This document shows positions 3,279 to 29,213 of a stretch of 30,409 nt of DNA, in pieces. The first letter of the stretch is position 1, and every line of letters starts with the position of its first letter. The stretch lies in the IMG/VR virus record IMGVR_UViG_3300031746_000114, positions 1 through 30,409 of that record. The stretch is one strand, 5' to 3'. The stretch is from a virus. Both the position numbers and the translations under genes were made by a program. The notes beneath the pieces are model-generated. The model saw only the letters and a list, made by a program, of their open reading frames with translations, was not told where the DNA came from and ran no database searches.

Positions 3279-3330
3279 TGTCTTATCCTTTCAAATTAAG
3301 TTTTTTCCATATTTCAAATCATCAATCACC

Positions 3331-3460
3331 CCGAGAAATTCAAAGAATTTCCGGCCTCGTGGAATCCGAAGGATTCCCGAGACTTTTGTCCTGGAAATCT
3401 CAAAGAGATTTCTCAGGGGACCAAGTCCTCGGAATCCCGAACCATCGGGATTCCAGAGGG
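3331..3460. repeat. cluster of four hairpins, AAAT-arm palindromic family
   Basis: Four consecutive perfect hairpins lie between the tail terminator and tail tube genes: GAAATTC-AAA-GAATTTC (3335-3351), GGAATCC-GAA-GGATTCC (3361-3377), GAAATCTC-AAA-GAGATTTC (3394-3412) and GGAATCCCGA-ACCA-TCGGGATTCC (3431-3454). They are joined by linkers such as CCCGAGACTTTTGTCCTGG and CAGGGGACCAAGTCCT, which recur in other copies (5997-6066, 21494-21540, 23411-23473, 29131-29190). Confidence 0.8.
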
Positions 3461-5945: not shown

Positions 5946-6078
5946 TCTGCCACCAAGTCACTAAGGCACTAAGAATCCCGGCGCGCCGGGATTGGGTCTT
6001 CGTGCCCTGAGAAATTCCAAAGGAATTTCCAGGACTTGGTCCCGGAAATCTTTCAGATTTCTCGGGGTCTTTGTGGCT
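5946..6078. repeat. nested palindromic repeat: CCAC-AAG frame with three inserted hairpins
   Basis: A CCACCAAGTCACTAAGGCAC frame on the left and CTTTGTGGC on the right enclose three hairpins. These are the 20-bp perfect palindrome AATCCCGGCGCGCCGGGATT (5974-5993), GAAATTCC-AAA-GGAATTTC (6011-6029) and GAAATCT-TTC-AGATTTC (6045-6061). Bases 5997-6042 are identical to 21494-21539, 15 kb away. Confidence 0.8.
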
Positions 6079-6083
6079 AATTT

Positions 6084-17221: not shown

Positions 17222-17290
17222 CCGCCACTAAGACACTAAGGCCCTATCCCGGCACGCCGGGATTCCTGGTGACTTCGCGCCTTTGTGGCT
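17222..17290. repeat. CCAC-AAG frame enclosing ATCCCGGC palindrome
   Basis: CGCCACTAAGACACTAAGG at the left and GCGCCTTTGTGGC at the right enclose ATCCCGGC-AC-GCCGGGAT (17246-17263). The same hairpin type sits in the frame at 5974-5993. It lies in the gap between the terminase and zinc-ribbon genes and overlaps the end of the terminase gene (17289). Confidence 0.65.
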
Positions 17291-20058: not shown

Positions 20059-21484
20059 TAAACAATGCCCCCTGTCCAATTTTCTGTTCGGCGACCGGCA
20101 CGCCTGTTTCAACCGCCTTCACTTCGACCTCGGCCTCTTTGAGCCGTTTTTCGGCAATGGCCACGTAGTCCTTTTCAATCTCTATCCCGATATACCGCCA
20201 TCCCCCCAATTTCGCGGCGACTAACGTACTCCCGCTGCCCGCGAACATATCGAGAATTACGCAGGGCGTCGTTTGACCGTAGCCCCCTATCTTGTTTTCT
20301 CCGAAAACATGGGGGGGAGGCGTGATTAACCCAATGAGGTATTTCATAAGGGCGATGGGCTTGACTGTGGGATGAAAATTGGTTCGTTTGTTGACACCCC
20401 TGTTTCGTGGATTATCACCCCCGGGATTACCTTCTTTCCTGCCTTCGTCCATTTGCCTTTCATCCTCACCCTCCAATCCCGCATCCCTCTCTGCCTTGCT
20501 CGCCTTCGCACAGTAAAAAAACCGGGCAGCAGAACCGGAAGATTTCTCACTATTACCAACTCCACCAAGTCCAAACATAGATGTCCCTGAATATCCTGTA
20601 TTTGTGCCAAAATGCGTCGAGGTCTGCGGAAACATCTCCACCACCCCATCAGAGCCATCGTGGATTAAATTGGCAGGAAAACGACCAAGAGATTCCGATT
20701 TAGCAACTTGCCCTTTACATCTCACTATTTTTGATTTTACTGCCTCTTCATTATGACGCCACGGCCTATCCCATCCCTCAGAAGCCGATGTGCTTCCTGT
20801 TGTCATTCCGCCGTTCAATTTATCGTTTGTCCCCACCCTGCACCCATCCACATTTATCCCGCCCGTCCCCCACTTCAAGACATTCTCGGCTATTGTCTTT
20901 TCGCTTATCGGTTTTCGGGCAAGACATACCGGCTCGTGGGCGGGTTTCAAAGCAGTCCCCCAGCCAGACCATTGAACAGCGGCGGGGGTAGTAGGTTTTG
21001 TTTGCAAATTATGTGTTGTCTCTCCTGATTGACATTTACCCGCACTATCCCGCATTGCTTCATCGCTTGCAAAATGACAAGGTTTGCCATCACCGTAAAT
21101 TCTTACCCCAACAACTTCTCTTTCCGCACCTACTTGCTTATCAATCGCCTTGCTAATATCCAAACTTTTCGGGAAACCAGAGCCATAAATCCATTCCACC
21201 ATATCCCGTATCTCAAAACCGGCATCCTCAATAGCACAGGCCATACGGTGATATGTCCGTGAGCCGCCGAAAGCCAAAAGGTGTGCGCCCGGCTTCAATA
21301 TCCGCAAAACCTCACGCCACATATCGACGTTATAAGCGATACCTGTATTGTCCCACGACTTGCCCATAAATCCGATATTGTAAGGCGGATCGGTAACTAC
21401 ATTGTCGATGCAGTTGTCCGGCCAGCCGGCCATAACCGTTCGACAGTCACCACAAACGATTCGATTTATTGGCAGTTCATTCAT
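20051..21484 (-). CDS. DNA methyltransferase, beta-type order (DPPY)
   Basis: I chose the ATG at 21484 (477 residues, MNELPINRIVCGDC); an upstream extension is encoded by a palindromic repeat. Motif IV VVTDPPYNIGF lies near residue 30. A long variable region of about 330 residues follows, likely including target recognition. Then come FHPTVKPIALMKYL (motif X) and LDMFAGSGSTLVAAKL (motif I), then YIGIEIEKDYVAIAEKRL. IV-first order with DPPY indicates N6-adenine or N4-cytosine methylation. No restriction enzyme is nearby, so it is probably a solitary phage methylase protecting the genome. Its N- and C-terminal ends resemble those of the methylase at 27299. The stop codon is supplied by an inverted repeat. 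Confidence 0.9.
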   Translation of the reverse strand: MNELPINRIVCGDCRTVMAGWPDNCIDNVVTDPPYNIGFMGKSWDNTGIAYNVDMWREVLRILKPGAHLLAFGGSRTYHRMACAIEDAGFEIRDMVEWIYGSGFPKSLDISKAIDKQVGAEREVVGVRIYGDGKPCHFASDEAMRDSAGKCQSGETTHNLQTKPTTPAAVQWSGWGTALKPAHEPVCLARKPISEKTIAENVLKWGTGGINVDGCRVGTNDKLNGGMTTGSTSASEGWDRPWRHNEEAVKSKIVRCKGQVAKSESLGRFPANLIHDGSDGVVEMFPQTSTHFGTNTGYSGTSMFGLGGVGNSEKSSGSAARFFYCAKASKAERDAGLEGEDERQMDEGRKEGNPGGDNPRNRGVNKRTNFHPTVKPIALMKYLIGLITPPPHVFGENKIGGYGQTTPCVILDMFAGSGSTLVAAKLGGWRYIGIEIEKDYVAIAEKRLKEAEVEVKAVETGVPVAEQKIGQGALFTP

Positions 21485-21770
21485 CTTCGTGTATCTTCGT
21501 GCCCTGAGAAATTCCAAAGGAATTTCCAGGACTTGGTCCGGTTTTTGATTTCAATTTCAGTGAGTCGTCCAGCCGGACGCCCTGCCGGGCGAGGATTCTT
21601 TCGAGTGCGATATTGTGATTCAAAAGCGACGCTATCTCCGCCGTTGTCAACTTGTTTCGCTTTCCTTGTTCAACCTTCAAATCTTCTAACTCCTGTTTTC
21701 TGTCTTCTATCTCCTTTCGCATTGCCTGATATGCCTTCTCCCTGATGATTCTCAATCCAAATATTTTCAT
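21477..21770 (-). CDS. small coiled-coil protein with repeat-derived C-terminus
   Basis: I chose the ATG at 21770 (97 residues, MKIFGLRIIREKAYQAM) because AGGG lies 7 nt upstream. The central region (KEIEDRKQELEDLKVEQGKRNK) is a coiled coil, followed by TTAEIASLLNHNIALERIL. The last 20 or so residues are read from a palindromic repeat (21494-21539) identical to one at 5997-6042, so the true ancestral end was probably shorter. The end overlaps the methyltransferase start. Similar small proteins precede terminase genes in other phages, but no function is known. Confidence 0.55.
   Translation of the reverse strand: MKIFGLRIIREKAYQAMRKEIEDRKQELEDLKVEQGKRNKLTTAEIASLLNHNIALERILARQGVRLDDSLKLKSKTGPSPGNSFGISQGTKIHEDE
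21494..21540. repeat. AAAT-arm palindromic element, one-armed copy
   Basis: The hairpin GAAATTCC-AAA-GGAATTTC (21508-21526) lies in the linkers CCCTGA and CAGGACTTGGTCC. Bases 21494-21539 are identical to 5997-6042. It lies in frame at the 3' end of the coiled-coil gene. Confidence 0.85.
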
Positions 21771-21786
21771 AAAACACCCTTTATTC

Positions 21787-21866
21787 CCACCACGAAGAAC
21801 ACGAAGGTGCACGAGGCTTTGAAACCTAAAACTTTCCTTCATGTTTCTCTATGCCCTCTGTGGTGA
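21787..21866. repeat. CCAC-AAG type inverted repeat
   Basis: CCACCACGAAGAACACGAAG at the left faces CTATGCCCTCTGTGGTG at the right. It fills the gap before the small coiled-coil gene. Confidence 0.55.
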
Positions 21867-22495: not shown

Positions 22496-23404
22496 TTATT
22501 GATGACTATTGACTAACGACACGGGCCATTCACGCCTTCTCGCCCATTCCGGCCAAAGATTCATATCTCCCGTCACTTTGCCGTCGATTTTGAGTTTCTT
22601 GACAAAGACCGGGACTTTCGCCGTATCACATTGTTCTATAAGAGATTTGACCCATTCGATTTTACACGGCCTTCTCTTTGGTCCCGTCTCACATCCGATG
22701 ATTAACCATTCTATTTGTCGTTTGTCGTTTATGGTTCGCAGTTCGTTGAGTTTCAAATCTATCGGCCCCAGAAGCGGCTCGCAGGAAATAAACCGGACCG
22801 CGGCGGGGATTTGACAAAGCATCTTAGCCCGGTCAAGATGCTTATCATTTTCAATCGTCACGCCGAGCCATATATTTTCGGGAAATTTCCCGCTTTCCAT
22901 AGATGCATTAAAGGGTGAATCGCCCCGCCAATGTTCGCCAACCCAGTCAAGCCAGAGTGGTATTCTTTCCGGCCTTTTTGTCAGGACCTGATAAGTATGG
23001 CCGGGGTCAACAAGCAATGTATCATCCCCTTCCCTTTCCGCCTTTTTGTTCGGCCATCGCCAGCTGCACATCACATCAAAAACACGGGTTATAAACTCAA
23101 ACGGCACCTTCTCATAAAACAAGTCCCCCATCGAGCAGACGAAGATATGCCTCGGCTTTCGCCAGTGAAGCGGCTGCTCCAGTGCTTTTTCATCATAGAA
23201 AACTCTGCCCGTCCAGGTCTGTCTGCCGCCAAGAGAGTGACCTTTGGTCGTTATGACCCTGCCATATTTTTCCAGACCCATCGCTGCTAATCGAATCGCC
23301 ATTTTTTCGGCATAGCATTTTGCGCATCCCTCGGAAACTTTAGAGCAGCCGACGACCGGGTTCCACGTCGATTCAGTCCATTCAATCCTTGTCTTATCGC
23401 TCAT
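22496..23404 (-). CDS. phage Gp37/Gp68 family protein (DUF5131)
   Basis: The 302-residue protein is a clear Gp37/Gp68 family member. It opens MSDKTRIEWTESTWNPVVGC, followed by CSKVSEGCAKCYAE (Cys-x6-Cys-x2-Cys, radical-SAM-like spacing). Then come HIFVCSMGDLFYEKVPFEFI near residue 90, YQVLTKRPERI near 140, NIWLGVTIEN near 175 and FISCEPLLGPI near 205. The Cys cluster suggests an iron-sulphur or zinc site; the biochemical role of the family is not established to my knowledge. In other phages a three-Cys-motif partner gene is often adjacent; none is seen here. It overlaps the DUF1353 gene by 11 nt. Confidence 0.9.
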   Translation of the reverse strand: MSDKTRIEWTESTWNPVVGCSKVSEGCAKCYAEKMAIRLAAMGLEKYGRVITTKGHSLGGRQTWTGRVFYDEKALEQPLHWRKPRHIFVCSMGDLFYEKVPFEFITRVFDVMCSWRWPNKKAEREGDDTLLVDPGHTYQVLTKRPERIPLWLDWVGEHWRGDSPFNASMESGKFPENIWLGVTIENDKHLDRAKMLCQIPAAVRFISCEPLLGPIDLKLNELRTINDKRQIEWLIIGCETGPKRRPCKIEWVKSLIEQCDTAKVPVFVKKLKIDGKVTGDMNLWPEWARRREWPVSLVNSHQ

Positions 23405-23903
23405 ATCGCAATCCTCGGCCCTGAGAAATCTCCTTGAGATTTCCAGGACAAAAGTCTCGGGAAATCCGAGGCACTATTATTGCCCCCGGCGCCTCACGGA
23501 CGAATCCTGTGGCCTTATCCTGCTTTGAATTATTCGCCCACGCCTTCCACCCGCCGATTCTAACGGCGGAATAAAAAACATTCGCCGTGAATTGAGTATC
23601 TTTGCAAACCACTATCGCCTCCCGCAAAACCGCATCCACAATTTCTCTCGGACAGAATTGCAGCCAGTACCCGATATCGTGAAGTATCACAGCAAGGGTA
23701 TATTTGCCATAAGGCGGGTACAGCCACCACAAGGATCGCGGAATAGAGCCGAGGTCTGTAATGAAGTTTTTGGGGACGTGGATTGTCCTTTTCGCAACTT
23801 CGGACCAGTAGTAAATATCCGTCCTGACTACCCATTCACGAGGACTGCCCGGAAATGGCGTAATTAAAATATCCTCTACCGGTGTTAGGAATCGCGCTTT
23901 CAT
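23394..23903 (-). CDS. DUF1353 family protein
   Basis: The 169-residue protein carries the DUF1353 signature VPKNFITDLGSIPRSLWWLYPPYG (residues about 43-66, quoted as two blocks: FITDLGSIPRSLWWL and YPPYG). This is followed by YTLAVILHDIGYWLQ, with conserved His and Asp that could form a catalytic or metal site. The family is common in phages, often near lysis or tail genes, and its function is unknown. The last 25 residues or so (RISRDFCPGNLKEISQGRG) are read from a palindromic repeat (23411-23473), so the ancestral protein probably ended earlier. The next gene starts within this repeat-derived tail. Confidence 0.85.
   Translation of the reverse strand: MKARFLTPVEDILITPFPGSPREWVVRTDIYYWSEVAKRTIHVPKNFITDLGSIPRSLWWLYPPYGKYTLAVILHDIGYWLQFCPREIVDAVLREAIVVCKDTQFTANVFYSAVRIGGWKAWANNSKQDKATGFVREAPGAIIVPRISRDFCPGNLKEISQGRGLRYER
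23411..23473. repeat. AAAT-arm palindromic element, copy in DUF1353 3' end
   Basis: The hairpin GAAATCTC-CTT-GAGATTTC (23425-23443) is followed by the linker CAGGACAAAAGTCTCGGG and a truncated second arm GAAATCCGAGG. Linker and arm match the third hairpin of the cluster at 3331-3460 in reverse orientation. Confidence 0.75.
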
Positions 23904-24527: not shown

Positions 24528-25510
24528 ACATCGAATAATCCTTTTTTCTCTTTTAGACAATGCGGGCTAATAAACAGCTGCTCCCTGTGTCGGTTTATAC
24601 TGCCTCTCGATTTTGCGTTGGAGTAGCCGCCCCCCGCCGACCACGCTTCAAATATCCAGCCATTATCCAGTAGCGTCTTGTATTCATCATCGTAACCAGC
24701 GGCAACAATGCGATAGTTAGGATTCCTGCCGCGTTCCAAACACCACACCTCAACATCCTTTGCTATGGTCATAGAATCTTGCTGGTAAATCGCCTCATCT
24801 CTCCCGCTCGTCGCGTATGGTGGGTCAAGGAATATGCCGACTGGTTTGTTTCCGTCCTGCCAGTTACCACCGCAAACCCGCGACCAATCGCCGCAGACAA
24901 CTTTGATATTTCGCAAACGCCTCGATAGTGCGTTAATCCACTCGTAAACGCCCGCATCGCGGGGAAGGTGCGATATCTTGCTTGTGATGCCCTTATTTTC
25001 GATAAGGTGCGGTATCTTGCTTGTTATGCCCTTATCGCCGGCAAGGTGCGGTCTCGCATTTGGGCGGGTAAGGCCCGAACCAATCCAGCAACTTGCCGCC
25101 CAAACCCAATATCCCGCAAGTTTGGCGTCGTGCCATTCGGGGTCATTTTGCAGATTGTTTATTAAATATCCCTCGTTTTCTGTAAGGATTTTGCGGCGGG
25201 CGTTCAAATCAGCGTGATTAACCGGCCAATCACACCACCGAGCGACCTCGTCGGGCGAAAACGCTATCGACCTCCAAACATTCGCGACAAAACCATCCTT
25301 GTCATTTACAATTTCGTAAATCTTGTTGAGTTTTGTCGGTGGACGTTTTAGCAAAACCGCACCACTGCCAAAAAATGGCTCAATGTATTGTTTAACGTCC
25401 CCAAGATACGCCCAAACCCTGTCAGCTACCTTACCCTTGCCGCCGAAATACGGAAATGGGGCTTTAAGGGCTTTGTCCATCACAACATCTTTCGTTGGTT
25501 TATCTGTCAT
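24518..25510 (-). CDS. DNA adenine methylase, Dam (D12 class) family
   Basis: The 330-residue protein has the Dam-type order: PFPYFGGKGKVADRVW near residue 20 (motif X/FxGxK), IEPFFGSGAVLL near 45 (motif I), and IFLDPPYATSGRD near 230 (motif IV). Dam-type enzymes methylate adenine N6 using S-adenosylmethionine. Between motifs I and IV a 13-residue tandem repeat (LAGDKGITSKIPH then LIENKGITSKISH) is encoded by a 39-nt minisatellite, in the region expected to recognise DNA. The start has AAAGGT upstream. No restriction partner is seen, so it is probably a solitary phage methylase. Confidence 0.9.
   Translation of the reverse strand: MTDKPTKDVVMDKALKAPFPYFGGKGKVADRVWAYLGDVKQYIEPFFGSGAVLLKRPPTKLNKIYEIVNDKDGFVANVWRSIAFSPDEVARWCDWPVNHADLNARRKILTENEGYLINNLQNDPEWHDAKLAGYWVWAASCWIGSGLTRPNARPHLAGDKGITSKIPHLIENKGITSKISHLPRDAGVYEWINALSRRLRNIKVVCGDWSRVCGGNWQDGNKPVGIFLDPPYATSGRDEAIYQQDSMTIAKDVEVWCLERGRNPNYRIVAAGYDDEYKTLLDNGWIFEAWSAGGGYSNAKSRGSINRHREQLFISPHCLKEKKGLFDVGE
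24965..25052. repeat. 39-bp minisatellite inside the Dam-type gene
   Basis: Units begin at 24965, 25004 and 25043, each opening AAGGTGCG. The first two are full 39-base copies with a few changes and the third is partial. Because 39 is a multiple of three, copy changes keep the frame. Confidence 0.8.
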
Positions 25511-26033: not shown

Positions 26034-26299
26034 ATTTTTCTTTCTGGTGTGTCAGCTATATCATTGCCTTTTTTTGCCGCTAAGGCACTAAGACATAAAT
26101 CACACCACAAAGACGTAAATTTCTTTTGTGATTCGGGGTCTTCCTGATAAAAGGTTTGGCCACAATGTCCAAGACATTTGCGTTGAATTTGTCCTGTTGT
26201 AAGCCGTAAATCACTCAAATCTCCGTTGCAAATTGGACATTGAGCATTTGGTTCATAATGAATTTTTTCAAATACGATAATTTTTTGACTATTGAACAT
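26030..26299 (-). CDS. zinc-ribbon protein
   Basis: The 89-residue protein starts at an ATG with GAGG 8 nt upstream. It has ligands CPICNGDLSDLR near residue 21, then KCLGHCGQTFY near 41, and a further pair CDLCLS near 66. The layout is a zinc ribbon with a possible second half. The end overlaps the next frame by 4 nt. Part of the end (ALAAKKGNDIADTPERKI) is read through CCGCTAAGGCACTAAG-type repeat words. Nucleic-acid binding is likely but unproven. Confidence 0.6.
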   Translation of the reverse strand: MFNSQKIIVFEKIHYEPNAQCPICNGDLSDLRLTTGQIQRKCLGHCGQTFYQEDPESQKKFTSLWCDLCLSALAAKKGNDIADTPERKI

Positions 26300-29083: not shown

Positions 29084-29213
29084 TGCCACCAAGTCCCTAA
29101 GTCACTAATTATTTCTTTGGGTCTTCGTGCCCCGAGAAATCTGAAAGATTTCCGGGACTAAGTCCTTGAAATTGCTTTGCAATTTCTAAGGGCCTTAGTG
29201 GCTAAAATTCCCT
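29084..29213. repeat. nested palindromic repeat: CCAC-AAG frame with two AAAT arms
   Basis: The CCACCAAGTCCCTAAGTCAC frame encloses GAAATCT-GAA-AGATTTC (29136-29152) and GAAATTGC-TTT-GCAATTTC (29168-29186). The linker CCGGGACTAAGTCC lies between the arms and CTTAGTGGC closes the right side. It fills the gap between the 75-residue gene and the methyltransferase. Confidence 0.8.

Follow-up and report, generated by a model that had tools for sequence, protein, structure and literature searches.

A GTC(C)-tagged hairpin dimer in uncultured bacteria and two related phages, probably a non-autonomous mobile element

The window, meaning the whole stretch of DNA analysed here (a 30,409-base IMG/VR virus record), carries copies of a short dimer of hairpins that is patchily scattered over unrelated uncultured bacteria and two related phages. 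Each hairpin begins with a GTC(C) tag and holds a single bulged base, and the mobility of the dimer is shown by empty sites and by nested copies. The dimers probably constitute a non-autonomous mobile element akin to REPs, REPINs and Rickettsia palindromic elements (RPEs), and a Y1 enzyme acting in trans probably moves them in single-stranded, folded form. The window itself encodes a GpA-type terminase, a lambda-type portal, a Mu-gpT-like capsid and several DNA methyltransferases, and thus represents all or part of a tailed-phage genome.

A sequence-only reading of the window had placed palindromes at five sites, and all five are occupied far above chance. The general unit pattern matches seven times in the window against none in 100 dinucleotide shuffles, triloop hairpins with arms of at least 8 bp number eight against 0.46 expected, and the segment 3320-3475, folded as DNA, is 7.6 SD more stable than its shuffles. 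Positions 5997-6042 and 21494-21539 are, as that reading had it, exactly the same over 46 bases. The copies in the window are:

3329..3354, minus strand: left unit of an outer dimer (CCG/GAAATTC, loop TTT), with a nested dimer lying between it and its tag
3355..3418, units on both strands: nested inner dimer, with units at 3356-3383 (minus) and 3388-3417 (plus) and the spacer TTTT
3419..3459, plus strand: right unit of the outer dimer (CTC/GGAATCCCGA), with its tag at 3425
6005..6067, units on both strands: complete dimer, with units at 6006-6035 (minus, CTG) and 6039-6066 (plus, CCG) and the spacer TTG, enclosed by a larger inverted repeat, GCCAC..AAG / CTTTGTGGC
21502..21540, minus strand: cut-down dimer, a unit at 21503-21532 (CTG) plus the tag of its partner, at the 3' end of the ORF 21477-21842 (minus)
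23419..23473, minus strand: cut-down dimer, a unit at 23420-23449 (CTG) plus a collapsed partner, at the 3' end of the ORF 23394-23903 (minus)
29130..29192, units on both strands: complete dimer, with units at 29131-29158 (minus, CCG) and 29162-29191 (plus, CTT) and the spacer TAA, in the insertion context TTCGTG|CCTTAGTGGC

The stretch 3331-3460, described earlier as four hairpins in a row, does hold four hairpins, but it is not a simple chain: 3329-3459 is a dimer inserted within another dimer. Deletion of 3355-3418 joins 3329-3354 to 3419-3459 and yields a perfect CCG/CTC outer dimer with a CAA spacer, CCG with CTC being the commonest dimer pair type, and no duplicated target is left at this site once the inner dimer is removed. 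The copies at 21503 and 23420 (given as 21494 and 23411 in the earlier reading, which took them for one-armed or truncated) are cut-down dimers that make up the C-terminal ends of two window ORFs. The same reading had likened the architecture to that of an AGATCT family, for which a simple count offered no confirmation (four AGATCT sites in the window against 5.4 expected).

The repeated body is not a set of AAAT...ATTT arms with a linker, as had been proposed, but a GTC(C)-tagged hairpin with one bulged base, of the form 5'-(A)GTC-CYN-GRAATNn-[3-4 nt loop]-nNATTYC-(one bulged T/A)-N'RG-GG-3'. Since these tagged hairpins are paired tail to tail, the supposed GGAC-N4-GTCC linker is to be read as two facing tags. 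Units were sought with a pattern anchored on GTC and with one anchored on AGTCC, whose reversed control gave no match in any genome; the loci scanned (0.80 Mb) contain 182 units against two in the reversed sequence. The base preceding GTC is usually A, with T in a small minority and C in only one listed trinucleotide context. Nearly all units have CCG, CTG, CTC, CCT, CTT or CCC as the lower stem, and most arms open with GAAAT or GGAAT. Tabulated loop triplets are usually TNY, which on the strand opposite the tag is mostly GAA, AAA, AGA or GGA. The extrahelical base is T in 145 units and A in 36, and when counted without assuming a bulge it is exactly 1 nt in 105 of 106 distinct units.

Compensatory change was examined in 105 distinct units, located by anchors that impose no pairing. 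The Y-R pair is Watson-Crick in all 105 (53 expected) and the N-N' pair in 104 (41 expected); across the variable pairs the counts are 105, 104, 103 and 102 of 105, so that the arms covary almost perfectly across species. G.T wobble and A.C pairs are almost absent among the variable stem pairs of these units, pointing to a hairpin whose structure is selected or maintained as DNA rather than RNA. The earlier suggestion of structure-based copying through GAA-type triloops was right in that structure matters, but no evidence ties the triloops to copying. An outer stem extending beyond the CC/GG ends was considered and set aside, as only position 3 beside the element covaries, and weakly (30 vs 19.7).

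Units are assembled into dimers under strict rules. Of 81 close pairs, 72 are tail to tail, with the tags inside (GAC-TNA-GTC), two are head to head and seven are tandem. The dimer is ~63 bp long, and in 45 of 74 distinct dimers the distance from CC to GG is 63 bases. Partners are never alike: the same lower stem occurs in both units in none of 68 dimers, where ~15 would be expected (2,000 permutations, minimum 5), nor in any of the 74 distinct dimers of an enlarged set, and identical arms are likewise found in none of the 68 (4.6 expected), in which typically one arm is 7 bp and the other 8. The two units may have to differ so that each hairpin folds alone, as equal units would be expected to collapse into one long hairpin.

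The distribution of the dimer is broad and discontinuous. A strict scan of genome contigs matched 78 stretches, in metagenome-assembled genomes (MAGs) labelled Omnitrophota, Ratteibacteria, NPL-UPA2, Auribacterota, Nitrospirota, Spirochaetes, Elusimicrobia and Phycisphaerales, with single matches labelled Bacteroidetes and Lokiarchaeota. Under the broader pattern, 21 of the matched genomes hold 2 to 42 units each, and the reversed pattern none. Within the phylum to which an Omnitrophota MAG belongs, 18 of 384 genomes are carriers, and within the class of one Phycisphaerales MAG, 4 of 397 (the names of both groups being deduced); the reversed-pattern control gave zero throughout. Some dimers from distant hosts closely match each other: one from a Phycisphaerales MAG (L075) and one from an Omnitrophota-labelled MAG (L035), for example, are near-identical and differ in the spacer alone; because the carriers are MAGs, some of the cross-phylum cases could be binning errors. 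The sequence-only reading had staked its dispersed, recently copied family on excess self-complementarity of the arms and on copies beyond the window, and both were found, the copies in many other genomes.

Two viral contigs bear dimers in the strict scan. One is a twin of the window phage, near-identical to it; the other is a relative with a 69% identical portal protein. Compared with the window, the twin has ~600 extra bases at window position 26036 (L001 4821-5417). Within the window, a D12-type methyltransferase gene contains two tandem 39-base copies (24965-25042) that are 82% alike. Larger inverted repeats of GCCACNAAGNCACTAAG ... CTTNGTGGC enclose the complete dimers (window 5950-6080 and 29084-29210), and the CACTAAG repeats around the window dimers also occur in Phycisphaerae-class genomes, some of them dimer carriers themselves. 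These common repeats are suggestive only of a possible Phycisphaerae-class host for the window phage. A second palindrome, AATCCCGGCGCGCCGGGATT, lies at window 5974-5993, where it adjoins a dimer, and at 17246-17263, and exact copies of 20-22 bases are present in several Phycisphaerae-class genomes.

That the dimer inserts is seen from orthologous genes without it. A PyrK-like gene (PF10418, PF00175) of the genome G013 contains two identical dimers, both in frame, whereas its orthologues in G022, G012 and G018 are without either; the peptide that a dimer adds to this protein is LRNSMEFQGPKSRKSFRFLGG. In a pseudopilin cluster, dimers are situated in the leader preceding GFTLxE, where one (L072:2266) is absent from G022 and G018, and at another site (L072:1658) G022 has a different dimer. 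Further in-frame dimers lie in CobT (L013), Fmt (L054), a HisA/HisF protein (L024), an FAD-binding protein (L076) and a phage DUF5131-like gene (L113), with Pfam matches supporting the CobT, Fmt, HisA/F and T2SSG identities, and they occur in either orientation. The tag and the ends of the element are constant at new, unrelated sites. No duplicated target was found at the nested window site or at the PyrK sites, and candidate target duplications were rejected, the direct repeats in the flanks being of low complexity and those at PyrK equalling pre-existing sequence in the orthologues. As a separate observation, G022 has a 31-base palindrome, CCCCGTTAGAGAACTCTGTTCTCTAACGGGG, with a flanking TTTAC direct repeat (L162, ~6741), which is absent from G013.

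Nesting is not confined to the window. Further cases occur at L016/L076, L041, L012/L070 and L198, the majority in a hairpin loop; a dimer can enter either the loop or the body of another copy. Of all 76 dimers, 13 occupy the loop of a stem of at least 6 bp in their vicinity, against an average of 5.6 for permuted flanks, with one extreme permutation also reaching 13; loop targeting was accordingly not adopted as a rule, the excess being moderate only. At L080 2490-2605, the two arms of a perfect 20-bp inverted repeat, CCGCTGAGTGTGCCAAAATT, enclose a dimer in their loop. Several dimers of G008 (L011 2768, L049 1484, L019 5423) adjoin GGGGTCAGGTCTTG / CAAGACCTGACCCC halves, which resemble the termini of a different mobile element.

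By analogy with known tagged repeats, a Y1 transposase is the first candidate mobiliser. None of 30 PF01797 (Y1 transposase) loci inspected in carriers, from a search of 21 carrier genomes, is flanked by units, and one of the 30 has a unit ~1.4 kb away. G013, which has 42 units in a 1.5-Mb assembly, has no detectable PF01797 gene, and clustering of the ORFs near copies gave no obvious mobiliser gene common to them. A small GIY-YIG nuclease gene of G012 (L164, ~1765-2120) is bounded by the inverted repeat CCCCGTTAGAGATA and sits at the hot spot in the pseudopilin leader that is taken by dimers in G013 and G022. A GIY-YIG nuclease was rejected as mobiliser: units flank none of the standalone genes at 30 loci, and there is no general flanking inverted repeat.

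No linked transposase was found, and the step in which a Y1 enzyme acts in trans is an inference. Folded single-stranded DNA would be the form in which the dimer is recognised and moved, the mover being a Y1 tyrosine transposase (IS200/IS605 or REP-associated) encoded elsewhere than in the dimer. The GTC(C) tag would serve as its guide sequence and the bulged base as a recognition mark, and phages like the window phage, which carry the dimer, may transfer it from host to host. Y1 elements leave no target duplication on insertion. The REP-associated enzyme TnpA_REP requires a tetranucleotide at the 5' foot and, in E. coli, a bulge (PMC8266576).

The foremost alternative is that the dimers spread without any dedicated transposase, through template switching at replication, gene conversion between copies and hairpin recombination. 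It agrees with the lack of a flanking transposase at the PF01797 and GIY-YIG loci inspected and with the number of copies in hairpin loops, and the case at L041 resembles a loop-to-loop replacement. Quasi-palindrome correction could account for the absence of mismatches in the arms, yet such correction should also erase the bulged base, which is kept in 105 of 106 units. CGTC-tagged repeats, also without a known transposase, might behave likewise. The constancy of tag and ends at unrelated sites argues against this alternative, as does the strict heterodimer rule, which it does not predict, and we regard it as unlikely. Alternatively, the repeats might be recombination targets of a site-specific enzyme from other elements, in the way that REPs and Neisseria repeats serve insertion sequences, with the phage carrying them as attachment or recombination sites. 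REPs are known as insertion targets for insertion sequences (PMC1525189), and the two related phages hold several copies. These copies are at different places in the two phages, however, and dimers enter unrelated sites as discrete 63-bp bodies, which renders this explanation quite improbable. Least probable of all is that the hairpins are RNA elements (terminators or mRNA-stability structures) which selection on gene expression has spread. Most copies do lie in intergenic DNA and give stable RNA folds, but G.U pairs are almost lacking, few copies are placed between convergent genes (3 of 56 flanked sites against a background of 39 of 419), many are translated in frame inside genes in either orientation, and the window has no Rfam 15 match above the gathering score.

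A mobile element moved in trans, the preferred explanation, can be set beside several known systems. Di Nocera (2013; PMC3733652) described the GTAG and CGTC superfamilies of tagged palindromic repeats, in which intragenic copies encode 20-30 residues, some genes are hit twice and heterodimers are preferred in several families. The CGTC-tagged repeats have no known transposase and take in RPE-4/RPE-6 and Neisseria dRS3 (PMC3733652). Like these, the present repeats are short tagged palindromes, mostly dimers, with copies in genes and sometimes two per gene. The tag is (A)GTCC, however, rather than the CGTC (or TGTC/CCTC) end of that superfamily, and the orientation is tail to tail (72 vs 2 head to head) rather than predominantly head to head. 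The stem starts with CYN instead of AT, and a lower stem with a 1-nt bulge, the 3' end being the bulge plus N'RGGG, takes the place of an unpaired CCA tail. Heterodimers are common in some CGTC-tagged families too, but homodimers have not been seen here, and the carriers are candidate phyla and phages, unlike those of CGTC-tagged repeats.

With GTAG-tagged REPs and REPINs the dimers share a tag at the 5' foot, an imperfect hairpin, inverted pairs and many copies. A conserved bulge or mismatch is present in some of those REPs and in 105 of 106 units here, where the unit and the pairing rules are stricter. The foot is GTC(C) and not the GT(A/G)G of the partners of RAYT, and the repeat-flanked RAYT (Y1) gene of a REPtron has no counterpart at the 30 PF01797 loci. 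IS200/IS605 ends likewise consist of hairpins with an extrahelical base, and the guide sequence at their foot would correspond to the tag here. They are recognised in single-stranded DNA, as the dimers probably are, and insert without target duplication, none being visible at the nested and PyrK sites of the dimer. The present hairpins have no transposase gene between them; Class 3 Y1 (TnpA) elements have a CnGA foot (PMC6006769), compared with GTCC here.

The resemblance to RPEs lies in the in-frame insertion into many unrelated protein genes, conserved ones included, whose orthologues lack the insert (PyrK, twice, against three orthologues). RPEs are reported at ~150 bp and in Rickettsia (PMC10969869), and a 63-bp dimer in distant phyla differs from them in size and in carriers; dimers in PyrK, CobT, Fmt and HisF-type proteins add ~21 residues well outside Rickettsia. 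Tagged palindromic repeats are thereby extended to deep uncultured phyla and their phages, the rule that no two paired units are alike leads to a clear mechanistic prediction, and the clean empty sites in conserved genes make it testable how tagged repeats without a transposase move. No report of a GTCC-tagged heterodimer family was found in the literature searched, whose partial coverage makes this weak evidence. Because the tags of both superfamilies differ from the one here, the units are tail to tail and the lower stem is bulged, the dimers are placed with the REP/RPE kind but outside its named families. Tentatively, and with slightly less than even confidence, we propose that they form a third superfamily beside the GTAG and CGTC repeats, one that is GTCC-tagged and obligately heterodimeric, crosses phyla, is carried by phages, makes in-frame edits of core proteins and would be served by a separate single-strand enzyme.
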